From positions 1,057,501-1,121,500 of the forward strand of contig NZ_AP014627.1 of assembly GCF_001547895.1 (NCBI RefSeq): a DNA stretch of 64,000 nt, written 5' to 3'. The notes beneath the pieces were generated by a model. The model saw only the letters and a program-made list of their open reading frames with translations. It was not told where the DNA came from and made no database searches. Position numbers and translations under genes: made by a program. Source of the DNA: Pseudomonas sp. Os17 (lineage in GTDB: Bacteria; Pseudomonadota; Gammaproteobacteria; Pseudomonadales; Pseudomonadaceae). Positions 49,100 through 62,598 of the stretch are shown piece after piece. Numbering within the stretch: the stretch's first letter is position 1; every line of letters starts with the position of its first letter.

Positions 49100-49405
49100 A
49101 TGAAAAGCAAGGCCGGCGGGCTCCCCGCTTCCTATCGTCTGGCGGTTGCCTCGCGGGTCTGCGCCGCAGTCCTGGGGGGCTACCTGCTGGCGGCGCTGTC
49201 CAGTGTCTGCCTGACCCTGCTGCTGCCTGGCCCCAGGGTCGATGCCGTGCTCAGCGGGATGCTCCTGTCCTTCGTGTTCTACCTGCTGGCGGTGCTCTGG
49301 TGCTTCGCCTGTCGCAGTGCCTGGCAGGCCTGGGCCGGGGTATTGCTGCCGAGCCTGGTGCTGGCGCTGGTGAGCGGTAGTCTCTACTGGGCGGCCTGGT
49401 CATGA
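49100..49405 (+). CDS. DUF3649 small membrane protein
   Basis: 101 residues from ATG 49100 (MKSKAGGLPASYRLAVASRV). Three predicted helices; small iron-regulated membrane family found next to PepSY and DUF3325 genes. It overlaps the PepSY gene by 4 nt (ATGA). Function unknown. Confidence 0.8.
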   Translation: MKSKAGGLPASYRLAVASRVCAAVLGGYLLAALSSVCLTLLLPGPRVDAVLSGMLLSFVFYLLAVLWCFACRSAWQAWAGVLLPSLVLALVSGSLYWAAWS

Positions 49406-50976
49406 AGGAGGGGTTGCGGCAATCCATGGCCTGGCTGCACACCTGGAGCGGGCTGCTGCTGGGCTGGTTGCTGTTCGCGATTTTCTTCACCGGCACCCTG
49501 TCCTACTTCAAGGCGGAAATCACCCACTGGATGCAGCCCGAGGCGCCGGCCCGCGCCCTGAACGCCGACGTCAGTCTGGAGCTGGCCCAGCGCTACCTGG
49601 AACAGCACGGCCAGGGCGCCCAGCGCTGGTTCATCGACCTGCCGGACCCGCGCCAGCCGCTGCTGGCGGTGGCCTGGCAGGCGCCGAGCGCCCCCGGCGA
49701 GCGCGGCGTGTTCACGGAAAAGCTCCTGGACCCCGGCACCGGCAGCGAACTGCACGTGCGCGATACCCGTGGCGGCGAGTTCTTCTACCGCTTCCACTTC
49801 CAGTTGCAGATGCCCTATCCCTGGGGCCGCTGGCTCTCGACCCTGGCGGCCATGGTGATGTTCGTGGCGCTGATCAGCGGCATCATCACCCACAAGAAAA
49901 TCTTCAAGGACTTCTTCACCTTCCGCCCGCGCAAGGGCCAGCGCACCTGGCTCGACGGGCACAACGCGCTGGGCGTGCTGGTGCTGCCGTTCCACTTGAT
50001 GATCACCTACAGCAGCCTGGTGATCTTCATGTCCATGGTCATGCCGGCGAGCATCCAGGTGGCCTACAAGGGTGACAGCAACGCCTACTTCAAGGACCTG
50101 CGACCGGCCAGCAACAACACCCCGGCGGCCGCTCGGGCAGCGCCCCTGACCGCCCTCGACCCGCTGCTCGAACAGGCCCTGGACCATTGGCCGGGGGGCC
50201 GGGTGCAGCGGCTGGTGATCAATCACCCGGGGGATGCCAACGCTTCGGTGCACGTCATGCGCCACAGCGCCGACCGGGTGGTGCGCGATGGGGGCTGCAC
50301 CCTGTCGTTCAACGGGGTCAGTGGCCAGCTGTTGCAGGCCAGCCCGGAACAATCCCTGCCCAAGGCCATCAGCGGCAGTTTCTATGGTTTGCACATGGGG
50401 CTGTTCGCCGGTCCGCTGTTGCGCTGGCTGTACTTCGCCTGTGGCCTGGCAAGCACCGCGATGATCGGCACCGGCCTGGTGCTCTGGCTCGGCAAGCGTC
50501 AGCTCAAGCACGCCAGGAGCCCGGCGCTGCCCTTCGAGCTGCGTCTGGTGCAGGTGCTGAACCTGGCCAGCATGGCCGGGCTGGTGCTGGCGGTGGCCGG
50601 GTTCTTCTGGGCCAACCGGCTGTTGCCGGTGACCCTGGCCGAACGTGCCGATTGGGAGGTCAACGGCTTCTTCATGCTGTGGGGCCTGAGCTTGCTGCAT
50701 GCCGTGCTGCGGCCGGAGCGTCGTGCCTGGGTCGAGCAACTGAGCCTGGCGGCCTTGCTGTTCGCCGGCATTCCTTTGCTGGACGTCCTGACCAGCCCGA
50801 GCCGGGCCGACGGCCTCATGGTCCGCGGCGACTGGATGCTGGCGGGCTTCGACCTGACCTGCCTGGGCAGCGGCCTGTTCCTGGCCTGGGCGGCGCGCAA
50901 GATGCATCGCGGCCAGCCGGCGGCGGCCCGTGCCCCACGACAACGGCCACCGGCCCCTGACACCGAGGTGAACTGA
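49402..50976 (+). CDS. PepSY-domain iron-regulated membrane protein
   Basis: 524 residues. Four helices, with the family start SMAWLHTWSGLLLGWLLFAIFFTGTLSYF. The central motif HKKIFKDFFTFRPRKGQRTWLDGHNALGVLVLPFHLMITYS has histidines in membrane-proximal positions, suggesting heme or metal redox. Such proteins (FsrB/PiuB-like) probably reduce ferric siderophores at the inner membrane (inference). Central gene of the DUF3649-PepSY-DUF3325 trio. Confidence 0.87.
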   Translation: MKEGLRQSMAWLHTWSGLLLGWLLFAIFFTGTLSYFKAEITHWMQPEAPARALNADVSLELAQRYLEQHGQGAQRWFIDLPDPRQPLLAVAWQAPSAPGERGVFTEKLLDPGTGSELHVRDTRGGEFFYRFHFQLQMPYPWGRWLSTLAAMVMFVALISGIITHKKIFKDFFTFRPRKGQRTWLDGHNALGVLVLPFHLMITYSSLVIFMSMVMPASIQVAYKGDSNAYFKDLRPASNNTPAAARAAPLTALDPLLEQALDHWPGGRVQRLVINHPGDANASVHVMRHSADRVVRDGGCTLSFNGVSGQLLQASPEQSLPKAISGSFYGLHMGLFAGPLLRWLYFACGLASTAMIGTGLVLWLGKRQLKHARSPALPFELRLVQVLNLASMAGLVLAVAGFFWANRLLPVTLAERADWEVNGFFMLWGLSLLHAVLRPERRAWVEQLSLAALLFAGIPLLDVLTSPSRADGLMVRGDWMLAGFDLTCLGSGLFLAWAARKMHRGQPAAARAPRQRPPAPDTEVN

Positions 50977-51303
50977 ATGCTGCTGGCGCTGCTGCTGTGC
51001 TTTGCCGGATTCACCGGTCTGTGCCTGTCCCTGGACCGGCACCACGCTGAGGTGCTCGGGCGCAAGCCCACGACCCGGCGCCGACACGGCCTGCGCCTGG
51101 GCGGCTGGCTGTTGCTGGGCCTGTCGCTGGCGGCGGCGGTGCTCGAAACCGGCTGGAGCCTGGGCCTGGTGCAGTGGTGCGCGGTGCTGATGGCCAGCGC
51201 CCTGCTGTTGGTGTTGCTGCTGCCCTACCGCCCGCGCCTGGTGCTGTCGATGGCGGGGGCCAGTCTGTTGGCCAGCCCGCTCGCCGCCCTGGCCGGATTC
51301 TGA
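50977..51303 (+). CDS. DUF3325 small membrane protein
   Basis: 108 residues, starting directly after the PepSY stop. Three helices; MLLALLLCFAGFTGLCLSLDRHH start and PLAALAGF end. It always travels with DUF3649/PepSY genes in pseudomonads, as far as I recall; function unknown. Confidence 0.8.
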   Translation: MLLALLLCFAGFTGLCLSLDRHHAEVLGRKPTTRRRHGLRLGGWLLLGLSLAAAVLETGWSLGLVQWCAVLMASALLLVLLLPYRPRLVLSMAGASLLASPLAALAGF

Positions 51304-51314
51304 AGGAGCGGCCC

Positions 51315-51893
51315 ATGATGAGCGCCCTGCCACCGGAACCCTCCGATCTGGATCACCCCGATCTGCGGGGCAGTCGCGCGCATTTTCTCCAGGTGTTCCT
51401 GTCCCAGCGGGCGCAGATGGAAGCCCTGGTCAGCCGCCGGGTCGGTTGCCGGGCCACCGCCGCGGATCTGGTGCAGGACCTGTTCCTGCGCTTCTGGCGC
51501 CGGCCGCTGGTGCAGGTCGAAGAACTCAGCACCTACCTGCTGCGCTGCGCCGGCAACATCGCCATCGATCACCTGCGCAGCGAGGGCGCGCGGGTGCGGG
51601 TCAGCGAAGGCTGGCTGCCGGAGCAACAGGACAACCAGGGCTGCGAACCCCAGGCCGCCCTGGAAGCCGGCAACGATCTGCGCCATGTCGAGGCCGCCCT
51701 GCGCAGCCTGCCGCAACGCACCCGGCAGATCTTCCTGCTCAACCGCATCCATGGGCGCAAGTACGCCGAGATCGCCAAGGTCATGGGCCTGTCCCAAAGC
51801 GCCGTGGAAAAACACATGATGCGCGCCCTCGAAGCCTGCAAGGCCAGCCTGCGGGACCCCTCGACCTCGCGCACGCCAAGGAATGCACCGTGA
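51315..51893 (+). CDS. FecI-type ECF sigma factor (second system)
   Basis: 192 residues from ATG 51315, with AAGGAG nine bases upstream, 11 bp after DUF3325. Sigma-2 ATAADLVQDLFLRFWRRP and sigma-4 LRSLPQRTRQIFLLNRIHGRKYAEIAKVMGLSQSAVEKHM. It is of the iron-starvation ECF class. Unlike fecI it has no receptor gene directly after its FecR partner. It is co-transcribed with the PepSY trio. Confidence 0.9.
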   Translation: MMSALPPEPSDLDHPDLRGSRAHFLQVFLSQRAQMEALVSRRVGCRATAADLVQDLFLRFWRRPLVQVEELSTYLLRCAGNIAIDHLRSEGARVRVSEGWLPEQQDNQGCEPQAALEAGNDLRHVEAALRSLPQRTRQIFLLNRIHGRKYAEIAKVMGLSQSAVEKHMMRALEACKASLRDPSTSRTPRNAP

Positions 51894-52879
51894 ACCACCG
51901 CTCCCGCGTTATCCCGACGCCCGCCCAGGAACAGGCGGCCCTGGCCTGGCTGAGCCTGCTCCACGATCAGCCCAGCAGCGGTGATCAGGCGACGTTCAGC
52001 CAGTGGCTGCAGGCCGATCCCGCGCACATCGAGGCCTATGCCCAGGCCCAGGTGCTGTGGGAGTTGAGCGAACAGCCGGCGCGCACCCTGGCCGATGAAG
52101 ACGCCCTGGCCCTGCAAGGCCTGCTGCGTTCCATGGATGGCGCCCGCGCCCGGAGCCGACGACGCTGGTCGGCGGGCCTGGCCATGGCCGCCAGCCTGTT
52201 GCTGGCGGTGGCCCTGGGCGCCGGTTGGCAGCCCGGGCGCTGGGTCGATGACCTGGGGGCCGACTACGTTTCCGCGCCGGGCCAGGTGCGCACCGTGACC
52301 CTGGCCGACCAGAGCCAGGTGACCCTGGATGCCGACAGCGCCATTGCCGTGGATTTCAGCGGCGGCGAGCGGCATGTGCAACTGCGCCGCGGCGCCGGGT
52401 TCTTCAGTGTCAGCCACACCGGCGCGCCCTTCGTGGTGGCGGCCGGGGAGGGCGAGACGCGGGTCCTGGGCACCCAGTTCGAAGTGCGCCTGCAACCGCA
52501 AGGGGCCCAGGTCACGGTGCTGTCCGGGCGGGTCGGAGTCACGGCGGCCCAGGGCGCGGCGCAGCAGGTACTCGGTGCCGGCCAGCAAGTGGCCTACGGG
52601 CATGCTGCGGCGACCCCGTTGCATGGCGTCGACAGTGAAGCGCAACTGGCCTGGCGCCAGGGCTGGCTGAACTACTACCACGCGCCCCTGGGCGAGGTGG
52701 TGGCCGACCTGCGGCGCTATTTCCCCGGACGCATCGTGCTGCTCAACGACGAGTTGGCGGCGCGCCGGGTCAGCGGCAGTTTCTCCAGCAAGGACCCGCA
52801 AGCGGTCCTCGATTCCCTGCAGGCCGTCCTGGGCTTCGAGCTGCACCAGCTCTTTGGCCGACTCCTGGTCCTGCGCTGA
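51890..52879 (+). CDS. FecR-domain anti-sigma regulator (second system)
   Basis: 329 residues from GTG 51890, overlapping the sigma stop codon as GTGA. An N-terminal DUF4880-like domain has QEQAALAWLSLLHDQPSSGDQATFSQWLQADPAHIEAY, one membrane helix lies at about 97-115, and the FecR domain has VRTVTLADQSQVTLDADSAIAVDF. The C-terminus carries an STN-like segment (LRRYFPGRIVLLN, then LDSLQAVLGFEL). It should control the preceding sigma factor; the cognate receptor is unassigned. Confidence 0.9.
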   Translation: MNHRSRVIPTPAQEQAALAWLSLLHDQPSSGDQATFSQWLQADPAHIEAYAQAQVLWELSEQPARTLADEDALALQGLLRSMDGARARSRRRWSAGLAMAASLLLAVALGAGWQPGRWVDDLGADYVSAPGQVRTVTLADQSQVTLDADSAIAVDFSGGERHVQLRRGAGFFSVSHTGAPFVVAAGEGETRVLGTQFEVRLQPQGAQVTVLSGRVGVTAAQGAAQQVLGAGQQVAYGHAAATPLHGVDSEAQLAWRQGWLNYYHAPLGEVVADLRRYFPGRIVLLNDELAARRVSGSFSSKDPQAVLDSLQAVLGFELHQLFGRLLVLR

Positions 52880-52925
52880 AAGGCCCGTCCCAGAGCTCCC
52901 GAACATTCATCGAGATCACACCGTT

Positions 52926-52961
52926 CTGTCACCAAATCGTTACATGGGGCGCGGATCATCT
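52926..52961 (+). promoter_or_regulatory. Candidate PhoB box and -10 upstream of exbD
   Basis: CTGTCACCAAATCGTTAC (52926-52943) fits a PhoB box of two 7-bp repeats separated by four A/C-rich bases: the first is CTGTCAC and the second keeps GT-x-AC. GATCAT follows after exactly 10 bp, where a PhoB-dependent -10 should be. It lies 87 bp before the exbD start. Confidence 0.55.
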
Positions 52962-53047
52962 GCGCATTCCTGAGCACATGGTCAGGATCGGCGAGGGTTG
53001 TGATTCAGCTCTCACAAGGGAGGGAAGGCTGAAGCGGGAGCAAGACG

Positions 53048-53455
53048 ATGCGCAGCTGGGATGTCGCTAAAAAGAAGAAGGCCCACATCGAAATCATTCC
53101 GATGATCGATGTGATGATGTTTCTCCTGGTGTTCTTCGTACTCATCAGTCTCAACGTGATTCCCGCCGTGGGAATCAAGACGCAGTTGCCGGTGGCCAGC
53201 ACCGCGCAACAGTTGAAGCCGCAAAACAAGGCGGTGATTACCCTGGGTCTGCAGGAACGTCTGCAACTGGACGGACAGGACCTGGATGAAGGGGCACTGT
53301 TGGCCCAACTCAAAGTGCTGAATAACGGCAGTGAAAAGTTGGTGATCATTATCAATAGCGATCAGGGCGTGGAAGTTAAGCGCCTGGTGTCGGTGATGGA
53401 CTTGCTCAAGGGCAATGGCTTCTCTTCCGTCTCCATCGCTACACGCAAGTCCTGA
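53048..53455 (+). CDS. exbD: ExbD-type TonB-system proton channel subunit
   Basis: 135 residues with one helix (about 20-40) holding the proton-path Asp in IPMIDVMMFLLVFFVLI, followed by a periplasmic domain. It works with ExbB and TonB to energise an outer-membrane receptor. GGGAG precedes the ATG. It leads an unusual exbD-tonB-receptor-exbB order; the usual order is exbB-exbD-tonB. Confidence 0.92.
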   Translation: MRSWDVAKKKKAHIEIIPMIDVMMFLLVFFVLISLNVIPAVGIKTQLPVASTAQQLKPQNKAVITLGLQERLQLDGQDLDEGALLAQLKVLNNGSEKLVIIINSDQGVEVKRLVSVMDLLKGNGFSSVSIATRKS

Positions 53456-53459
53456 CGCC

Positions 53460-54227
53460 ATGTTCGCCTTATATAAAACACGCAAGTGGCTGGCGTGCCT
53501 GCTGCCGGCTGGCCTGTTGTTGCTGGTGATCTATACCAGCCAGTTGCAACAGTTGCAGATCAAGCCGGTGTACGACGAAAGCACGGTGGAAATTGCCCTG
53601 GTCGATGCCGCCGAACTGCTGGCCGCTGCCGAGCCACCGCCGCCGCCCGAGCCGCTGCCGGTCGAGCCCGAGCCGCCGCAGGTGGTGCCCGAGGAAGAGC
53701 CGCTGGTGATCGAGCCGCCCAAGCCCAAGCCGGTGGTCAAGCCCAAACCGCCGGCGCCCAAGCCGCTGGTGGCCAAGCCGCAGCCGCCCAAGCCGGCCCC
53801 GGCCGCCGTGGCCCAGAGCACTCCGGTGGCGCCGCAGCCCGCGGTGGCCGCCGCCCCCAAGCCGGTGGCGCCACCGGCCGCCGTACCTGCTCCGGCCCCC
53901 GCACCCGCGGCGCCCAGCAGTGCCATCAAGGAAAGCCTGTACACCGCCGCTTTGCGCAAGGAACTGGAAAAGCACAAGCAATACCCCAGCGGCCGCGAGG
54001 CCTCGTTGCAACGTCCCCAGGGCGATGTGGTGATCTGGCTGGAAGTCGATCGGGCCGGCAACGTGCTCGACAGTGGCATCGAAAACAAGGCGTCGAACAT
54101 GTTGCTCAATCGCGCCGCGCAAACCAGTTTGCGCCGCGTGGAGAAAGTTTCACCGTTTCCCTCGGACGCGTTCTCCGGCAAGAACAAGCAACGTTTTACC
54201 GCGACCTTTAGTTACAACGTGGAATAA
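53460..54227 (+). CDS. tonB: Energy transducer TonB
   Basis: 255 residues from ATG 53460, only 4 bp after exbD. One N-terminal helix (about 10-27), a Pro/Lys/Glu-rich rigid linker (about 55-160, repeats of PKP and PPEP), and a C-terminal TonB domain (KQYPSGREASLQRPQGDVVIWLEVDRAGNV). The linker length fits crossing the periplasm. It is dedicated by position to the receptor that follows. Confidence 0.92.
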   Translation: MFALYKTRKWLACLLPAGLLLLVIYTSQLQQLQIKPVYDESTVEIALVDAAELLAAAEPPPPPEPLPVEPEPPQVVPEEEPLVIEPPKPKPVVKPKPPAPKPLVAKPQPPKPAPAAVAQSTPVAPQPAVAAAPKPVAPPAAVPAPAPAPAAPSSAIKESLYTAALRKELEKHKQYPSGREASLQRPQGDVVIWLEVDRAGNVLDSGIENKASNMLLNRAAQTSLRRVEKVSPFPSDAFSGKNKQRFTATFSYNVE

Positions 54228-54270
54228 ACCCATCACCTATTAACGAAAGTTGTAAGCAAGGGATTGACCC

Positions 54271-56511
54271 GTGAAGATCAATAAACTTTATGCCCTGCTT
54301 CTGGCATCGGGCCTGGGCAGTTTTGCGCCATTGGTTCTGGCCGAAGATACAGTTGACGTCGGTGCGGTGAACGTTGCCGGTAAACAGACCCTGGGCAACG
54401 GCCACATGATCAAGGAAGAAAGCGCCAAGGGGCGCTCCACCGTGACCAAGGAAGCCATGGACCAGATGGCCCCCACCGCCAACGCCGTGGACAAGCTCAA
54501 GTACACCCCGGGGATCAACGTCTCCAGCACCGACGCCACGGGCTTGAGTGGCACCAACTTCACCATGCGCGGGATGAACTCCGACCAGGTGGGGCTGTCC
54601 GCCGACGGTTTCCCGATCAACGACTCGGGGGACTACAGCATCTACCCGAACCTCATGGGCGACCCGGAGAACTTCAGCGAAGTCTTCGTCACCCAGGGCT
54701 CGTCCGAGGCCGACGGCCCGCACATCGGCTCCAGCGGCGGCAACATCGGCCTGGTGACCGTGCGCCCGACCAAGGATTTTGGCGTGTTCGCCAAGCAGTC
54801 CATCGGTTCGAACAACGTGCGCAAGAGCTTCGCCCGGCTCAATACCGGTGACCTGGGCGGCTTCAAGACCTGGGTTTCGGCGTCCCACACCGAGGGCGAC
54901 AAGTGGCGCGGCAAGGGCACGCTGCGTGCCGACAAGGTCGAGTGGAACACCCTGTTCGAAGACGGCAACGGCAACTCCACCAACGCCATCGTCAAGTACA
55001 ACCTGCAGGAAAACTACAACTACAACAGCCTGAGCAAGGCCCAGTTCCAGAACCAGGGCCGGCGCCTGGACTACTCGGAAAGCACCGTGTTCAAGAACGG
55101 CAGCGTGTCCCAGTCCTACAAGCTCAACCGCAACCCCTTCGAGAGCGTGACCGCTTCGCTGACCCAGCGCTTTCAGCTGCGTGACGACCTGAGCCTGACC
55201 TTCAACCCCTACTACGTGTGGTCCAACGGCGGCAGCTTCAGCGGCCAGACCGCCACCAGCTTGTCCGCCAGCTCGAACAAGGCCGGCAACTACGACCTGG
55301 CCGGCTTGCCTGCCGGCACCTACTACCGGCCGTCGTGGACCGAAACCTGGCGCCCCGGGATGACCACCAAGCTCAAGTGGGATCTCAACGAAGAGCACAG
55401 CCTGGACGTCGGCTACTGGTACGAACGCGCCCGCCAGCGCCAGACCCAGCCCTTCATCGGCATCAAGGGCAACGGTGCTCCGGAGAATGTCTGGGGCGAC
55501 TACAACGGTTCCGACCAACTGGTGGACCGCAACGGCGTCACGGTCCAGGGCCGTCACCAGTACACCGTGACCCCGGCACAGAAGCTCTGGGTGCAGGACA
55601 CCTGGCAGGCGACCCCGGACCTGACCCTTACCGGAGCCCTGGCCTACCAGTACGTGGAACGCGACGGCAACAACCTCGGCAGCCTCACCGACAAGCCGGA
55701 AAAACGCGACGCCAAGTACCACCAGTTCCTGCCCAGCTTCAACGCCAAGTACCAGGTAGACCCGAACAACCAGGCGTTCTACAACGTCACCCGCAACATG
55801 CGCACACCGCCCAACTACGTGCTCTACAACAAGGGCGACTCCATCAGCCTGAAACCCGAGCTGAGCTGGAACCAGGAACTAGGCTGGCGCTACAGCGAAG
55901 AGAACATGGCCCTGAGCGCGACCCTGTTCTACATCAGCTTCAAGGACCGGCAGATCTCCACCACCGACCTCAACGGCGACTACGTCGTGGCCAACGTCGG
56001 CGAAGTGAAGAACCGCGGCCTGGAGCTGGAGTGGAGCGGCAAGCTGCCCCACGACTTCAACTACTACGCCTCGTACACCTACACCAAGTCCGAGCAGATG
56101 GACGACCTGACCAACAAGAACGTGCTGCTGCCGACCTCCGGCAAGCAACTGGCCAACGTGCCGGAAAACATGTTCAACCTGAGCCTGGGCTACGACGACT
56201 CGCGCTACTACGGCAACGTCGTCGGCAAGTACGTCGGCGCCTTCTACGGCGACCTGACCAACGACGAGAAGATCGCCGGCCGCACCGTGGTCGACCTCAA
56301 CGCCGGTATCCACCTGCCGGTGGACAAGAAGGTGCTGAAGTCCGCGACCCTGCGCTTCTCCATGCTCAACGTGTTCGACAAGGAATACCTGGCCTCGACC
56401 CGTACCGTGTCGTTCAACACCCAGCGCACCAACGGTCTGGCGCCGAGCACCGCCTACTACAACGTCGGTGAGGAACGCACCGCGATGGTCTCCCTGGAAG
56501 CCGGGTTCTGA
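54271..56511 (+). CDS. TonB-dependent receptor of the phosphate-box operon
   Basis: 746 residues, GTG start. The signal peptide ends at LA (about residue 24). No STN signalling domain: the mature protein starts EDTVDVGAVNVAGKQTLGNG and goes straight into the plug (AVDKLKYTPGINVSSTDATG). The barrel ends MVSLEAGF with the terminal Phe typical of these receptors. It does not resemble FecA or typical siderophore receptors. Its place between tonB and exbB, and before a 5'-nucleotidase, points to a phosphorylated organic substrate (inference). Confidence 0.88.
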   Translation: MKINKLYALLLASGLGSFAPLVLAEDTVDVGAVNVAGKQTLGNGHMIKEESAKGRSTVTKEAMDQMAPTANAVDKLKYTPGINVSSTDATGLSGTNFTMRGMNSDQVGLSADGFPINDSGDYSIYPNLMGDPENFSEVFVTQGSSEADGPHIGSSGGNIGLVTVRPTKDFGVFAKQSIGSNNVRKSFARLNTGDLGGFKTWVSASHTEGDKWRGKGTLRADKVEWNTLFEDGNGNSTNAIVKYNLQENYNYNSLSKAQFQNQGRRLDYSESTVFKNGSVSQSYKLNRNPFESVTASLTQRFQLRDDLSLTFNPYYVWSNGGSFSGQTATSLSASSNKAGNYDLAGLPAGTYYRPSWTETWRPGMTTKLKWDLNEEHSLDVGYWYERARQRQTQPFIGIKGNGAPENVWGDYNGSDQLVDRNGVTVQGRHQYTVTPAQKLWVQDTWQATPDLTLTGALAYQYVERDGNNLGSLTDKPEKRDAKYHQFLPSFNAKYQVDPNNQAFYNVTRNMRTPPNYVLYNKGDSISLKPELSWNQELGWRYSEENMALSATLFYISFKDRQISTTDLNGDYVVANVGEVKNRGLELEWSGKLPHDFNYYASYTYTKSEQMDDLTNKNVLLPTSGKQLANVPENMFNLSLGYDDSRYYGNVVGKYVGAFYGDLTNDEKIAGRTVVDLNAGIHLPVDKKVLKSATLRFSMLNVFDKEYLASTRTVSFNTQRTNGLAPSTAYYNVGEERTAMVSLEAGF

Positions 56512-56533
56512 TGCCCTTCGGGGCCAAGAGGAA

Positions 56534-57184
56534 ATGACGATGGACATGAATCTGCTGCACGACATCACCTTCTACACCATGTACGGCGCCGCCGCGATTG
56601 CCGCCTTTATCGCCGTGGAGCGGGGCATCTACTTCAGTTTCAGCCTGCGCCAGGCGAAGAAACTGGAGAGCGTGCTCAACCCGAAGATGCACAGCGTCGA
56701 CGACCTGCCCGCCGAGCTGCGCCAGCGCAACAGCCTGCCCCTGGAGATGGTCGCCGAGCTGTTTGCCCACAAGCAGGGGCTGGCCAGCCACAAGGACCTG
56801 GAAGACCTCAGCGAGTCGATCTACATCGCCACCCGCAGCAAGCTGATGCATGGCCTGTGGCTGCTGGAAACCGTGGTCACCGCCGCGCCCCTGCTGGGCC
56901 TTCTGGGCACCATCCTGGGGATCATCGACACCTTCAAGGCCCTGGCCGAAACCGGCGTCAGCGACCCGGGCGAAGTGTCCAAGGGCATCGGCACCGCGCT
57001 GTACGCCACCGCCCTGGGGATCGCCATCGCCCTGGGCAGCATGATCTTCCACAACCACTTCCAGGACCGGGTCGAGCGCATCACCGACCACCTGAAGATC
57101 CTGCTGCTGCGCGCCGGCATGGGCACCGCGCTGAAGGCGCCGCCCGCACCGCAAGCGCTCCACGGCAGCCTGCAACCGGCCTGA
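56534..57184 (+). CDS. exbB: ExbB-type TonB-system proton channel subunit
   Basis: 216 residues from ATG 56534, with AGAGGA upstream. Three helices and the MotA/TolQ/ExbB domain: LLETVVTAAPLLGLLGTILGIIDTFKAL, then ISKGIGTALYATALGIAIAL region. Complements the exbD four genes earlier, and 22 bp separate it from the receptor gene. The acidic/Thr proton-path positions are present. Confidence 0.9.
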   Translation: MTMDMNLLHDITFYTMYGAAAIAAFIAVERGIYFSFSLRQAKKLESVLNPKMHSVDDLPAELRQRNSLPLEMVAELFAHKQGLASHKDLEDLSESIYIATRSKLMHGLWLLETVVTAAPLLGLLGTILGIIDTFKALAETGVSDPGEVSKGIGTALYATALGIAIALGSMIFHNHFQDRVERITDHLKILLLRAGMGTALKAPPAPQALHGSLQPA

Positions 57185-57318
57185 TGGCCTAGCCTGTCGC
57201 CGCTGGCGCAGGCTGTGATCGACGACCGGACCGGTGCTGTTGTCCAGCCCCCCGGGTCGTCCCCTCACAGCTTTGGCCAGCGGCTTTTTTTTTCGTCGAC
57301 TTTCCAAGGATTTTTTCC

Positions 57319-59022
57319 ATGTCCCGTCTTCGTCCCATGCCCCGGTTGCTGGGTGCACTGACCCTGGCCCTGGTGACCCTGGCCGGTTGCAGCTCGCTGA
57401 CCCGCGAGCCGCAACCGGTGGCGGTGAACATCGTCGCCATCAACGATTTGCACGGCTACCTGCAGGCCAACCCCTTCAGCTACAAGGACCCTCAGGCCCC
57501 GGGCGGGGTGCGCAAGCTTGCGGCCGGCGGCATCGCCACCCTGGGCGGCATGCTCACCCAGTTGCGCCAGCAGGATCCGCAGCTGCTGTTCATCGGCGCC
57601 GGCGACCTGGTGGGCGGCAGCCCGCCGCTGTCGGCCATGTGGGCCGACGAGCCGACCCTGGAGGCCCTGCGCCAGATGGGCATGAAGCTCAGCGCCATCG
57701 GCAACCACGAACTGGACAACGGCAAGGCCGAGTTCCTGCGCCAGCTCAACGGTGGCTGCCAGTCGTCGCGGCCGGACAAGGCCTGCCAGTTCCGCCCGAA
57801 CTACCCGGGCAGCGGCTTCCCCTACCTGGCGGCCAACCTGCTGGACAGCGACACCGGCCAGCCGCTGTTGCCGGCCTATCGCATCGAGGAGGTGCGCGGG
57901 GTCAAGGTGGCCTTTGTCGGCGCGGTACTGCGGGACGTGGCCTCGGTGGTCAGCGCCAAGGGCATGCGCGGCCTGCAGGTGAGCGATGAAGCCGACGCCA
58001 TCAACCGGCTGATTCCCGAACTCAACGCCAAGGGGGTCAACGCCATCGTCGCCGTGGTGCACCAGGGCGGCTCGACCCCGGAGCCGTTCGACAAGCCGGA
58101 CTGCTCGCAACTGGGCGGCGATATCGTCGAAGTGGCCAAGCGCCTGGACCCGGCGGTGGACGTGCTGATCAGCGCCCACTCGCACCAGGGCTACCTGTGC
58201 CAGGTCGGGCCGCTGCTGGTGACCCAGGGCCATTCATACGGCCACCTGCTGACCCACCTGACCCTGCAAGTGACCCCGGGCCAGCACCGGGTGGCGAGCA
58301 TCCAGGCGGTCAACCTGCTGGCCGATCCGGCCCGTTATCCACAGGACCCGGCCCTGGCGCAGCTGCAGCAACAGGTCGAGGCGCGCAGCAACCAGGTGCT
58401 GCTCAAACCGGTGGGCGCGATCGCCGACTCGCCGATTGCCCGGCGCGCCGATGCCGCCGGAGAAATGCCCATCGGCGACCTGATCGCCGACGCGCATCTG
58501 GCCGGCGGCCGGGCCAACGGTGCACAGATCGCCTTCATGAACACCGGTGGCATTCGCAGCGACCTGGCCCTGGAGCCCGGGCAGACCCGGGTGAACTACG
58601 GACAACTGGCGACCCTGCAACCGTTCAACAACAACCTGATCGCCTTCGACCTCACGGGCCGGCAGATCGAGCAGGTGCTCAACCAGCAATGGAAGGGCGC
58701 GGAGGATGCCAACATCCTGCAAGTGTCCGAGGGCTTCAGTTACCGCTGGGACGCCAAGCGCCCGCCGGACAGCCGCGTAGTGCCCGGCAGCCTGCGCCTC
58801 AATGGCCAGCCGCTGCAGGCCGAGGCGAACTACCGGGTGGTGATGAACGGCTTCCTGGCCGATGGCGGCGACCGCTTCAGCCTGTTCAAGAGCGGGGGCA
58901 ACCGCAGCGACCTCGGGCTCAGCGACCTGGACGCGATGCTGCAGTACCTCAAGGCCATGGACCAGCAGGGCCGGCCTGTGGGCTCCAGCACCAGCGCCGG
59001 GCGTATCCAGCGCCTCAACTGA
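57319..59022 (+). CDS. Lipoprotein 5'-nucleotidase / metallophosphoesterase (UshA-like)
   Basis: 567 residues. Lipobox LAGC with Cys24, so it is a membrane-anchored periplasmic or surface lipoprotein. N-terminal metallophosphatase domain with AINDLHGYLQ, GAGDLVGGSP, GNHELDNG and SAHSHQGY; C-terminal 5'-nucleotidase domain with MNTGGIRSDL and NGFLADGGDRF. It should release phosphate and nucleosides from nucleotides. It follows exbB after 134 bp that contain a hairpin without a T run, so it may be co-transcribed with the TonB block. Confidence 0.9.
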   Translation: MSRLRPMPRLLGALTLALVTLAGCSSLTREPQPVAVNIVAINDLHGYLQANPFSYKDPQAPGGVRKLAAGGIATLGGMLTQLRQQDPQLLFIGAGDLVGGSPPLSAMWADEPTLEALRQMGMKLSAIGNHELDNGKAEFLRQLNGGCQSSRPDKACQFRPNYPGSGFPYLAANLLDSDTGQPLLPAYRIEEVRGVKVAFVGAVLRDVASVVSAKGMRGLQVSDEADAINRLIPELNAKGVNAIVAVVHQGGSTPEPFDKPDCSQLGGDIVEVAKRLDPAVDVLISAHSHQGYLCQVGPLLVTQGHSYGHLLTHLTLQVTPGQHRVASIQAVNLLADPARYPQDPALAQLQQQVEARSNQVLLKPVGAIADSPIARRADAAGEMPIGDLIADAHLAGGRANGAQIAFMNTGGIRSDLALEPGQTRVNYGQLATLQPFNNNLIAFDLTGRQIEQVLNQQWKGAEDANILQVSEGFSYRWDAKRPPDSRVVPGSLRLNGQPLQAEANYRVVMNGFLADGGDRFSLFKSGGNRSDLGLSDLDAMLQYLKAMDQQGRPVGSSTSAGRIQRLN

Positions 59023-59026
59023 CGCT

Positions 59027-59154
59027 TGTAGCCGCTGCCGAGCCTGCGAGGCTGCGAAAAGGTCCGCAGGACCTTGCTTGGCGATCTTTAGACCGCCGCG
59101 ACCGCTTCGTCGGAATACCGCCCAGCCCGTTCGCCGCCTGCGCCAGCGGCTACA
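59027..59154. repeat. REP/ERIC-like palindromic element
   Basis: TGTAGCCGCTG at 59027 and CAGCGGCTACA at 59144 are perfect 11-bp ends. Inside lie CGAGCCTGCGAGGCTGCG and other palindromic blocks, known as a dispersed element in fluorescent pseudomonads. It lies between the nucleotidase and the receptor gene. Confidence 0.7.
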
Positions 59155-59251
59155 GGGGATGCATCGGGCGGGGGGCGTTTTCGCCGTCGTGAAAATATTT
59201 TCAAAAAACAGGTGAGGTCTTGGCGTTCGAGCTACGTGTAGTGCTTGAAAG

Positions 59252-59266
59252 TGCGACTAATTCGCA
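59252..59266. promoter_or_regulatory. Candidate Fur/iron-box inverted repeat before the receptor
   Basis: TGCGA-CTAAT-TCGCA inverted repeat, 32 bp before the receptor start. A perfect palindrome TGAAAATATTTTCA sits 50 bp further up (59190-59203). Either could be a metal-regulator site; neither matches the Fur consensus strongly. Confidence 0.4.
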
Positions 59267-59297
59267 TTCACGGCTTTTTTACACGCGAGTCTCAAGC

Positions 59298-61736
59298 ATG
59301 AAGTCCAGGGCACATTCGGCGGCAAACGCTTCGGTCAAACGGTGGTTCGGCGCCTCGGCGCTGGTGGTGTCGGGGTTGGCCATGCTGCCCCTGGGCGTGG
59401 CGCTGGCGAGCGAGTCCGGCGTTGCGCAACACAGCGCGCTGTTCAACTTTTCCATCGCGGCCAAGCCGCTGCCCCAGGCCCTCAGCGACTTCACCCGGAT
59501 CACCGGGATCAGTGTGATCTACACCGACCAAGCGCCTTATGCGCTGACGGCACCGGCCCTTAGCGGCCAGTTCAGCGCCGATCAGGCCTTGCAGCGCCTG
59601 CTGGGCAACTCCGGCTTCGGCTACCGCCGCAGCGATGCCCACACCCTGGTCCTGGAACCCTTGCCGAGCGGCGCCGGGCTGAACCTGGAGGCGACCCAGG
59701 TCACCACCCAGGGGCCAGACGACAGCGCCAGCTACCAGCCGCCGGCCAGCACCTCGGTGGCCCGTTCCCAGGCGCTGAACCAGGAGATCCCGCAGATCAT
59801 CAACGTGGTTCCAGCCCAGGTACTGCGGGACCAGACCCCGCGCAACCTGGATGACGCCCTGGCCAATGTCAGCGGCATCACCCAGACCAACACCCTGGGC
59901 GGCACCCAGGACGCGGTGCTGCTGCGCGGCTTCGGCGACAACCGCAACGGCTCGATCATGCGCGACAGCATGCCAGTGGTGCAGGGCCGGGCGCTCAATG
60001 CCACGGCGGAACGGGTGGAAGTGCTCAAGGGGCCCTCGTCGCTGCTGTATGGCATCCAGGACCCGGGCGGCGTGGTCAACGTGGTCAGCAAGAAGCCCGA
60101 GCTTCAGCAATCCACGGCCCTGACCGTGCGCGGCTCGACCTATGGCTCGGGCAAGAACGGCAGCGGCGGCAGCCTCGACACCACCGGGCCGCTCGGCGAT
60201 TCCGGGCTGGCCTACCGCTTGATCGTCGACCATGAAGACGAGGACTACTGGCGCAATTTCGGCACCCATCGCGAATCCCTGGTGGCGCCGTCCCTGGCCT
60301 GGTACGGCGAGAGTACCCGGGTGCTGCTGGCCTACGAGCACCGCGAGTTCCTCACCCCGTTCGATCGCGGCACCGCCATCGATCCCAAGACCAACCACCC
60401 GCTGGACATTCCGGCCACCCGGCGCCTGGACGAGCCGTTCAACAACATGGAAGGGCGCTCGGACCTGTATCGCCTTGAAGTCGATCATGAGCTCAGCGAC
60501 GACTGGAAAGCCCACTTCGGCTACAGCTGGAACCGCGAGACCTACGACGCCAGCCAGGTGCGCCTGACCGCGGTCAACCCCAACGGCACCCTGACCCGGA
60601 GCATGGACGGCACCCAGAACGCCCTGACCACCGACCGCTACGCCACCGTCAGCCTGGAAGGCAAGGTGCAGCTGGGCGGCATGCAGCACGACCTGGTGTT
60701 CGGCCTGGACGACGAGTACCGCAAGATCTACCGCGCCGACCTGATCCGGCAGAAAAGCCGCACCACCTTCAACTACCTGAACCCGGTCTACGGTCGGGAA
60801 GTGGCCGGCACCACGGTCAGCGCCCCGGACAGCGACCAGACCGACCTGCTGCGCAGCGACTCGCTGTTCTTCCAGGACGCCATCCACCTCACCGACCAGT
60901 GGATCCTGGTGGGCGGCGGACGCTTCCAGGAATACGACCAGTACGCCGGCAAGGGCCGGCCGTTCCACGCCAACACCGACAGCAACGGACAGAAGTTCGT
61001 GCCCCGTGCCGGGCTGGTGTATCGCTACACCGATCAGTTGTCGTTCTACGGCAGCTACACCGAGTCGTTCAAACCCAACTCCAGCATCGCCCAGCTGGCC
61101 GGCGGCACCGCGGTGTTGGACGGTTCCATCGCCCCGGAAGAGGCCAAGTCCTGGGAGCTGGGAGCCAAGCTCGACATCCCCGGGCGCATCACCGCCAGCG
61201 CGGCGCTGTTCGACATCACCAAGCGCAATGTGCTGGTGTCCACGGCCACCGCCACCGAGACCGTCACCAGCGTGGCCGGTGAAGTGCACTCCCAGGGCCT
61301 GGAGTTGGACCTGACCGGGCAGCTCACTGATCAGTGGAGCCTGATCGGCAGCTATGCCTACACCGACACCGAGGTGACCAAGGACACCCAGTACAAGGGC
61401 AAGCAGTTGCAGAACGTGGCCAAGAACAGCGGCTCGCTGTCGGCGGTCTACGACTTCGGCAGCCTGATCGGCGGCGACCGCCTGCGGGTCGGCGCCGGGG
61501 CCCGTTATGTCGGCCAGCGCGCCGGGGACGCGCCCAACAGCTTCGACCTGCCGGGCTACACCGTGGCCGATGCCTTCGCCACCTACGACACCCGGGTCGA
61601 AGGGCAGAAGGTCAAGTTCCAGCTCAACGTGAAGAACCTGTTCGACAAGACCTACTACACCTCGTCGGCCAGCAAGTACTTCGTGTCCATGGGGGATGCC
61701 CGTCAGGTGTCGCTGTCCAGCACCCTGGAGTTCTGA
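59298..61736 (+). CDS. TonB-dependent siderophore receptor with STN domain
   Basis: 812 residues from ATG 59298. A long signal peptide ends near residue 38. The STN signalling domain follows (about 50-120: FNFSIAAKPLPQALSDFTRITGISVIY), then the plug (VPAQVLRDQTPRNLDDALANVSGIT, GGVVNVVSKKP) and a barrel ending SLSSTLEF. The plug resembles ferrichrome/hydroxamate receptors. The STN implies a FecI/FecR pair; the receptorless sigma/FecR pair at 51.3-52.9 kb is the nearest candidate. Ligand unknown. Confidence 0.9.
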   Translation: MKSRAHSAANASVKRWFGASALVVSGLAMLPLGVALASESGVAQHSALFNFSIAAKPLPQALSDFTRITGISVIYTDQAPYALTAPALSGQFSADQALQRLLGNSGFGYRRSDAHTLVLEPLPSGAGLNLEATQVTTQGPDDSASYQPPASTSVARSQALNQEIPQIINVVPAQVLRDQTPRNLDDALANVSGITQTNTLGGTQDAVLLRGFGDNRNGSIMRDSMPVVQGRALNATAERVEVLKGPSSLLYGIQDPGGVVNVVSKKPELQQSTALTVRGSTYGSGKNGSGGSLDTTGPLGDSGLAYRLIVDHEDEDYWRNFGTHRESLVAPSLAWYGESTRVLLAYEHREFLTPFDRGTAIDPKTNHPLDIPATRRLDEPFNNMEGRSDLYRLEVDHELSDDWKAHFGYSWNRETYDASQVRLTAVNPNGTLTRSMDGTQNALTTDRYATVSLEGKVQLGGMQHDLVFGLDDEYRKIYRADLIRQKSRTTFNYLNPVYGREVAGTTVSAPDSDQTDLLRSDSLFFQDAIHLTDQWILVGGGRFQEYDQYAGKGRPFHANTDSNGQKFVPRAGLVYRYTDQLSFYGSYTESFKPNSSIAQLAGGTAVLDGSIAPEEAKSWELGAKLDIPGRITASAALFDITKRNVLVSTATATETVTSVAGEVHSQGLELDLTGQLTDQWSLIGSYAYTDTEVTKDTQYKGKQLQNVAKNSGSLSAVYDFGSLIGGDRLRVGAGARYVGQRAGDAPNSFDLPGYTVADAFATYDTRVEGQKVKFQLNVKNLFDKTYYTSSASKYFVSMGDARQVSLSSTLEF

Positions 61737-61770
61737 TGAGCACCCTGATCCCGGGCCTGGCCGTGGCGCC

Positions 61771-62598
61771 TTAGTCGGCGCCCAGTGCCAGGGCTTGCGC
61801 TTGTGCCGCACAGTCGCCGCTGGCGGTCAGGCCCCTGGCGCGGACGGCCAGCAGCTCTTGCCGGGCGACGGCGAAGTCGGCCTGGAAGGTCGGATCGGTG
61901 TGCAAGCGTGCCACGGTGGTCGCGCCGATCTCGCGCCCTTCACGTACGTCGCTGTACCAATGCACGTTGCACACCATGCGGCTCTCCGAATAGGCCCGGC
62001 CACGGGCCCAGAGCGCGTCGCCGTGCTCGGGGGACAGTTCGCTCAACAGCAGCGCCCAGGCCCAGCCAATGGCGCTGTGGCCCGACGGGTAGGAACCATC
62101 TTCGGCGAGCTTGGCCTCATCTTCCGGGGTGCAGCTGGGCTGCTGGTTGTAGACGAAGGGCCGTGTGCGCTGGTAGCGCTTCTTGGCGCTATAGGTGGCC
62201 AGCCCGGCATCGGTCAGGGTCCGGCGCAAGACTCTGTACAGCGCAGGTGTCTGCTGTTCGCTGATGGGCGCATTCAGCGCACAGGAAAACGTCTCTGCGG
62301 CGGCGGGGAACTTCAGGTTGGCATCGCTGATGGCCAGCGCCCAGCGTTTGCTGCCACGCAAGACCTGGCTTTTTTCAGCCATGCTCTGGTCCAGCGCGAA
62401 GGCTTGTGAGCCCACCGCGGGAGGTGGCGGTAACAGCGCAAGACTATTGGGCAGATCCTGCTGTTTCAGATATCCGATCAAGTAACCGGGTCGGAACTCC
62501 GGGACATTGTCCGTTTGGCTGTGGTGTTGGGCCACGGCTGGGTGGATCAGGCTTGAAAGCAATACACCGGCCAAACATTTCGATAGTAGGCGTTGCAT
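61771..62598 (-). CDS. Class A acid phosphatase (PAP2 superfamily)
   Basis: 275 residues with a signal peptide (about 1-23, ending AVAQ). The complete three-part phosphatase signature is present: Lys139-x6-Arg146-Pro147, Pro171-Ser-Gly-His174 and Ser206-Arg-x5-His213-x3-Asp217. The GSYPSGHSA form and size fit periplasmic class A nonspecific acid phosphatases such as PhoN. It hydrolyses phosphomonoesters. It starts 52 bp after the end of oprD on the same strand, so the two may be co-transcribed. Confidence 0.92.
   Translation of the reverse strand: MQRLLSKCLAGVLLSSLIHPAVAQHHSQTDNVPEFRPGYLIGYLKQQDLPNSLALLPPPPAVGSQAFALDQSMAEKSQVLRGSKRWALAISDANLKFPAAAETFSCALNAPISEQQTPALYRVLRRTLTDAGLATYSAKKRYQRTRPFVYNQQPSCTPEDEAKLAEDGSYPSGHSAIGWAWALLLSELSPEHGDALWARGRAYSESRMVCNVHWYSDVREGREIGATTVARLHTDPTFQADFAVARQELLAVRARGLTASGDCAAQAQALALGAD

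Follow-up and report, generated by a model that had tools for sequence, protein, structure and literature searches.

Phosphate depletion induces the PUS loci of Flavobacterium, in which PusCD and low-phosphate TonB-dependent transporters adjoin phosphomono- and phosphodiesterases and which, according to the portion of the report available, have been proposed to import organic phosphate (PMC8115612). In Pseudomonas aeruginosa exbB2-exbD2-tonB4 lie in the sigma-VreI region, described in the accessible sections of that work as a phosphate-starvation context with an extracytoplasmic function (ECF) pair (PMC7035377). A UshA protein was enriched upon phosphate depletion in P. stutzeri DSM4166 in a study whose main text, as far as available, names neither TonB nor ExbB nor ExbD (Lidbury 2016; PMC5082522), and the passages on nucleotides, nucleosides and phosphate in a 2024 review of TonB-dependent substrates name no nucleic-acid transporter (PMC11658791). 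We analyzed a stretch of 64,000 nucleotides, hereafter the window, located at 1.0575–1.1215 Mb of the Pseudomonas sp. Os17 genome (6.89 Mb, one contig), which carries an exbD-tonB-receptor-exbB cassette followed by a gene for a UshA-type 5'-nucleotidase. No published account of this cassette was found in the titles and abstract openings searched, most subscription journals being outside the scope of that search.

The PUS loci are the closest published analogue found, as judged from the available text, sharing with the cassette a TonB-dependent transporter beside phosphoesterases. Unlike them, the cassette is Gammaproteobacterial, holds its own exbD-tonB-exbB within the operon, is linked to deo and nupC genes and seems to vary in its regulation between lineages. 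No SusD-like partner was detected by Pfam among the ten window proteins of 49402–62598, so that the locus does not classify as a PUS. The sigma-VreI region, which we take to be PUMA3, differs in gene order and partners (hxc, pdtA/B) and has no receptor and nucleotidase around exbB/exbD in the sections available. Receptors of the siderophore and PqqU type share Plug and barrel with the cassette receptor, which however scores below the siderophore-receptor cut-off, has no Fur box above shuffles and is accompanied by phosphoesterases. The deo, nupC and cdd genes of E. coli serve nucleoside catabolism; the same enzymes occur in basal cassettes, but there the genes for a TonB importer and a 5'-nucleotidase come before them in the same row.

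The original prediction, made from the letters of the window, had described a row of exbD, tonB, a receptor without STN domain, exbB and a UshA-like lipoprotein, and this row was confirmed by open reading frames and profile searches. All five genes lie on the same strand between 53048 and 59022 with intergenic gaps of 4 to 134 bp:

53048–53455, forward strand: exbD of a cassette-specific clade (Pfam ExbD, E 1e-29)
53460–54227, forward strand: divergent tonB (NCBIfam tonB_Cterm 29.0, above the cut-off of 27.1)
54271–56511, forward strand: TonB-dependent receptor without STN, with Plug and barrel (Pfam), a putative nucleotide or oligonucleotide importer
56537–57184, forward strand: exbB (Pfam MotA_ExbB)
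57319–59022, forward strand: UshA-type 5'-nucleotidase lipoprotein (Pfam 5_nucleotid_C and Metallophos, active-site motifs, best solved relatives nucleotidases)

ExbB, ExbD, TonB and a receptor with Plug and barrel, the components of energized TonB-ExbB-ExbD transport, are all encoded here. The TonB product stays narrowly below the Pfam TonB_C cut-off (24.4 against 24.6 bits), and the ExbD motif P-M-[IVL]-D is found in 63/63 complete cassettes of the relatives described below. The S-x3-H motif is a feature of E. coli TonB; judged by eye, the membrane segments of 16 cassette TonB N-termini and of the window TonB are without it. STN gave no match at E<=0.001 in the receptor (Pfam), which therefore does not classify as a cell-surface-signaling receptor. 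Its counterparts in P. protegens FD6 and 14B2 share 98% identity with it, and five Arg residues of the window protein (353, 361, 388, 508 and 511) are invariant in 11 sequences. The last protein carries the lipobox LAGC, and its two domains together with metal and substrate motifs place it in the 5'-nucleotidase superfamily. Since it remains under the cut-off of the UshA equivalog NF007109 (124.5 of 600 bits), we only use the name UshA-type.

A scan of named genomes yielded 159 receptor relatives; the 80 best were retained as named loci and come from Pseudomonas, Stutzerimonas, Phytohalomonas, Serratia, Klebsiella, Pectobacterium, Pantoea, Erwinia and others. The order of genes is non-standard, as exbD and exbB are separated by tonB and the receptor, and it is that of a conserved cassette: exbD-tonB-receptor-exbB is complete in 63/80 named loci. 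In sixteen loci the receptor stands alone (in one of them on a contig of 6.4 kb) and one locus is interrupted by a contig end. In every one of the 63 complete cassettes exbB is followed by a phosphoesterase, UshA in 23 and a PLD3/PLD4-like enzyme (PLD) in 40, which upholds the idea that the TonB system is self-contained and coupled to the hydrolysis of phosphoesters. PhoD is encoded upstream of exbD on the opposite strand in 16/40 PLD cassettes, and in enterobacterial cassettes PLD is constant while flanking genes vary by genus. The nucleotidase itself is thus unlinked from the cassette in the PLD branch, an outcome named beforehand as speaking against the prediction, although another phosphoesterase replaces it there.

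In a receptor tree (n=86, relative to three distant Pseudomonas receptors, truncated L147 excluded) the UshA types are basal, the PLD types form one derived group in which L069 and L070 are placed as well, and the lone receptors form one clade. L069, labeled UshA in the tree though it also has PLD, carries PhoD, PLD and UshA in one locus and therefore connects the UshA and PLD branches; its genome is listed with 9% contamination. P. piscis MC042 shows the same cassette with identical receptors on two scaffolds, either a duplication or an assembly artefact.

The receptor was found at E<=1e-60 in 44/249 genomes of the genus, 41 of them at >=57% identity, and in a class-level search at E<=1e-150 only in the own genome (1/369), so that the family is patchy at class-level sampling. 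Window-type receptors (78–100% identity) occur in 13 genomes. Two of these, the own genome and G107, have the complete operon; in the remaining 11 the receptor stands behind FecR without exbD, tonB, exbB or ushA alongside. A cassette-type ExbD (67–69%) adjoins a second receptor copy in 10/11 of these lone-receptor genomes, and the four second copies retrieved out of the ten all have PhoD and PLD beside them. ExbD relatives (67–100% identity) are present in 17/18 genomes with the receptor. UshA-type nucleotidases are rare in the genus, occupying 12 places in 11/249 genomes: nine inside the cassette, one behind an ExbB remnant and two without signs of a cassette. The remnant, 40% of ExbB length, is the only cassette gene beside that nucleotidase, perhaps a decayed cassette which retained it.

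The genes following the nucleotidase give a clue to what may be transported. Downstream of ushA, cdd and nupC are found in 13/24 UshA loci, deoC-deoA-deoB in 10/24 and deoD in 8/24, some loci ending early. The basal Pseudomonas operon runs on as cdd-nupC-deoC-deoA-deoB(-deoD), for example in L052, L141 and L177. Cytidine deaminase, NupC, DeoC, thymidine phosphorylase and phosphopentomutase pass their NCBIfam cut-offs, and a partially read DeoD passes TIGR00107. AphA is located upstream on the opposite strand in seven loci. Because of the linkage to cdd/nupC and to deoC-deoA-deoB, nucleotides fit the cargo best, which lends weight to the nucleotide import originally proposed; the most likely cargo, as suggested by this gene content, would be nucleotides or oligonucleotides, DNA included. 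By guilt by association we infer a route in which UshA, PLD or PhoD and the deo enzymes would lead from phosphodiester to nucleotide, nucleoside and deoxyribose phosphate.

We therefore consider it fairly probable that the cassette is a dedicated TonB transport system for nucleic-acid breakdown products. On the wider proposal we judge the balance to be even: a nucleic-acid utilization locus whose TonB-dependent importer would take up DNA-derived oligonucleotides or nucleotides and would perhaps be the first such importer known. The locus would be shared by Pseudomonas, a halomonad and Enterobacterales, UshA and PLD replacing each other as hydrolases and basal operons including a deoxynucleoside pathway. 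The operon-encoded ExbB-ExbD-TonB would power the receptor, which may carry nucleotides or short oligonucleotides through the outer membrane. Periplasmic phosphoesterases, UshA here and the exonuclease-like PLD with or without PhoD in relatives, would then release phosphate, their families being evident and their activity presumed. Nucleosides would pass NupC-type transporters and, in the basal lineages whose gene content includes it, enter the deo pathway of the same row. DeoC had no match at E<=1e-30 in the own genome (matches in 35/249 genomes), where the cassette would probably serve phosphate salvage and would be induced by PhoB, or by a regulator related to it, through an array at 52904–52943.

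Several observations weigh against this interpretation. The nearest solved relatives of the receptor are PqqU/YncD and iron receptors (FecA), with similarity mainly in the C-terminal half, and the ligand cannot be read off its sequence; with 72 K+R against 79 D+E the receptor carries a small negative net charge. The 15 long-flanked lone receptors among the named loci are without these kinds of phosphoesterase alongside, and one genome (G185) has a lone receptor without cassette-type ExbD.

Upstream of exbD we located three elements:

52904–52943, forward strand: PHO-like array of four half-sites phased at 11 bp, CATTCAT-N4-ATCACAC-N4-CTGTCAC-N4-TCGTTAC
52954–52959, forward strand: probable -10 element GATCAT
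52967–52988, forward strand: dyad TTCCTGA-N8-TCAGGAT, at or just past the predicted transcription start

The box originally proposed for PhoB, CTGTCACCAAATCGTTAC, corresponds to the last two array units (52926–52943) and is indeed followed by GATCAT after exactly 10 bp. As a two-unit PHO site it matches 9/14 consensus letters. We scanned with a PHO matrix built from five sites of the own genome found by consensus search, which is small and biased toward the consensus; this search gave 252 matches against 118 for the reversed pattern. The sites adjoin genes for a PBP-domain protein taken for PstS, ExbB and a response regulator (Pfam), one lies by another solute-binding protein, and the pstC label was assigned by eye. 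The four-unit array ranks 1 of 127,922 window positions and its first three units rank 2; a fifth 11-bp unit is absent (five-unit rank 32 in the window). CTGTCACCAAATCGTTAC alone ranks only 93 of 127,966 positions on both strands, and judging the PHO signal by the 18-mer alone was dropped. Against shuffles in a two-strand scan, the best two-unit site of the window promoter has p 0.087 and lies elsewhere than CTGTCACCAAATCGTTAC, and the three-unit array reaches p 0.015 (pooled null). The array half-sites depart from the PHO consensus.

An alignment of 13 promoters that precede orthologous receptors, or the cassettes containing them, showed a footprint at the same place: the CTGTCACCAAATCGTTAC position has 96% mean identity with 14/18 columns invariant and the -10 element 5/6 invariant columns, compared to 74% identity in the spacer and 65–66% in the flanks. 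These promoters are mutually related and do not represent 13 independent tests.

Among relatives the signal was unevenly distributed. A one-strand matrix scan for three units (60 shuffles per promoter, p<0.05) passed 14/16 PhoD-linked and 6/9 window-type promoters, and a stricter two-strand scan with pooled null at 0.05 passed 8/17 promoters of the PhoD type (L054–L070) and 0/4 of the other UshA type. Counting plain consensus letters with 20 shuffles gave 7/16 PhoD-linked, 1/14 other UshA-type and 7/24 enterobacterial promoters. Several of these numbers count against a general phosphate response: the one-strand scan passes only 1/14 other UshA-type and 1/24 enterobacterial promoters, the two-strand three-unit scan 4/13 of the window group, the window's own included, and the plain consensus count only 1/10 window-type promoters. 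Because so few other UshA-type and enterobacterial promoters pass the PHO scans, the family as a whole is not defined by being a phosphate-starvation system. Judged from promoter sequences, the PhoD branch is likely to be under PhoB control, and for the window cassette such control is plausible; outside these groups the signal is weak or mixed, and phosphate control looks lineage-specific. The phosphate control originally proposed thus holds as a plausible PhoB-type array in the window and more clearly in PhoD-linked relatives, but neither through the 18-mer, which is not distinctive, nor for the whole family.

The promoter might instead be read by the neighboring ECF sigma factor or another OmpR-type regulator, an alternative to which we give a sizeable minority of our belief. 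Several conserved half-sites end in GTTAC or GTAAC instead of GTCAT (an element ending CAAA-N2-GTTAC or GTAAC is kept in 5/14 other UshA-type promoters), ECF-FecR is kept beside the promoter in lone-receptor genomes, and CRP-like matches exceed shuffles in 6/10 window-type and 15/24 enterobacterial promoters. The 11-bp phase, the 10 bp to the -10 element and the first rank of the array argue for PhoB, however, as do the PHO arrays in PhoD-linked relatives without an ECF gene. In the enterobacterial exbD promoters (L146–L178; 17 aligned) we also noticed TGTGA-N8-TCACA in several loci and a GTAAC-N5/6-TAAAC repeat right before a TATAT -10 element.

The dyad is a candidate for a 5' mRNA hairpin or the operator of a local regulator. 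It has 15/22 invariant columns in the 13 promoters, and in 18 chosen related promoters both sides are altered in 4/8 pairs, with a covariation score of 0.157 compared to 0.070 for shuffled sequences (reached by 0/500 shuffles). Sliding the register by -2 still gives 0.127, yet only 39.6% of positions pair, against 75.7% in register. The leader RNA folds with z -1.23, 26/200 shuffles folding equally well, and Rfam gave no match at the gathering threshold within 52000–60000. A further inverted repeat, TTGTGA-N8-TCACAA, lies in the leader at 52998–53019 and is shared by the P. protegens-group loci L116, L117, L119 and L121.

The cargo could also be another phosphorylated compound, for example phospholipid head-group diesters or nucleotide sugars, with PLD, PhoD and UshA as the matching hydrolases. 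PhoD and UshA enzymes have broad specificity, and no cdd, nupC or deo gene was seen in the vicinity of any of the 40 named loci of the PLD type. The best solved match of the cassette PLD is SpPLD of Serratia plymuthica (2.4e-171), which was studied as an extracellular phospholipase according to the sections available (PMC8004604), and the PLD relative 7e0m is filed as a phospholipase. The next matches however, starting at 2.7e-35, are PLD4 and PLD3, which are 5'-3' exonucleases, with one viral nicking-joining enzyme among them, followed by a viral envelope phospholipase and NucT. Two HKD motifs (HAKYMVVD and HSKTLEID in one member) and this similarity place the relatives' PLD in a PLD3/PLD4-like class, and SpPLD itself is described, in the same available sections, with motif and loop features resembling nucleases (PMC8004604). 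Together with the cdd, nupC and deo genes of the basal UshA cassettes, which indicate nucleosides, this makes a different phosphorylated cargo unlikely in our view.

The cassette is preceded by genes for PepSY, a small protein, an ECF sigma factor and FecR, and followed by a second receptor and a phosphatase:

51318–52879, forward strand: ECF sigma factor and FecR anti-sigma factor (Pfam/NCBIfam)
59298–61736, forward strand: siderophore-type receptor with STN (TIGR01783 over cut-off)
61771–62598, opposite strand, behind the STN receptor: PhoC-like acid phosphatase (best NCBIfam PhoC, 215.7 bits, below the cut-off of 430)

These neighbors raise the question of iron uptake, in which the receptor would carry a ferric siderophore and belong with the adjoining ECF, FecR and PepSY genes, leaving the nucleotidase a bystander. 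PepSY-ECF-FecR is located upstream of the receptor in 12/13 group genomes, and in the thirteenth (L049) FecR is present where the contig ends. The STN receptor is found in 13/13, adjoining the cassette receptor in three and elsewhere in ten; in those ten genomes FecR, accompanied by ECF if the contig extends that far, remains beside the cassette receptor, which suggests some link between the two. For P. protegens Pf-5, a non-STN receptor without known substrate, PFL_0932, was elevated under iron limitation although it has no Fur box, and PFL_3177 is another such receptor, as stated in the parts available (PMC3377617). Identity with PFL_0932 looks unlikely for the cassette receptor, because PFL_0932 is 23 tags from sodA1 (PFL_0909) and the cassette receptor about 78 kb from the SodA match. 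From the same available parts, two of five exb clusters of Pf-5 are iron-regulated, neither mapped to this cassette (PMC3377617). ECF-FecR is found in 9/63 complete named cassettes and beside lone receptors too, and was not found in other cassette branches; missing from 54/63, it was rejected as a core part. Given in addition a Fur consensus no better than shuffles at p<=0.05 (window-type 0/10, other UshA-type 0/14, PhoD-linked 0/16, enterobacterial 1/24), a TIGR01783 score of 146.3 bits below the cut-off of 223.5 and the missing STN domain, we regard iron uptake as very doubtful.

The acid phosphatase, which the original prediction had counted toward a phosphate theme, is a real gene but poorly conserved: it is present in 4/9 named loci of the window layout (L116–L119), the contig of L121 stopping short of that point, and was rejected as part of the system. 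Elsewhere in the own genome, at 4.3402–4.3469 Mb, lies another TonB/ExbB locus (L004, L088, L098, L099) whose tandem PHO boxes come close to the consensus, perhaps a second phosphate-linked TonB system.

How nucleotides or pieces of DNA, too large or too scarce for porins, pass the outer membrane as food is poorly defined in Gram-negative bacteria. Here one operon unites a TonB receptor with the proteins that would power it and a phosphoesterase, joined by deo genes in relatives, and this offers a direct genetic test. If uptake of nucleic-acid breakdown products is true, it would represent a new kind of cargo for TonB systems and would add phosphorus, or the carbon and nitrogen of DNA, to systems that have mostly been studied for iron.

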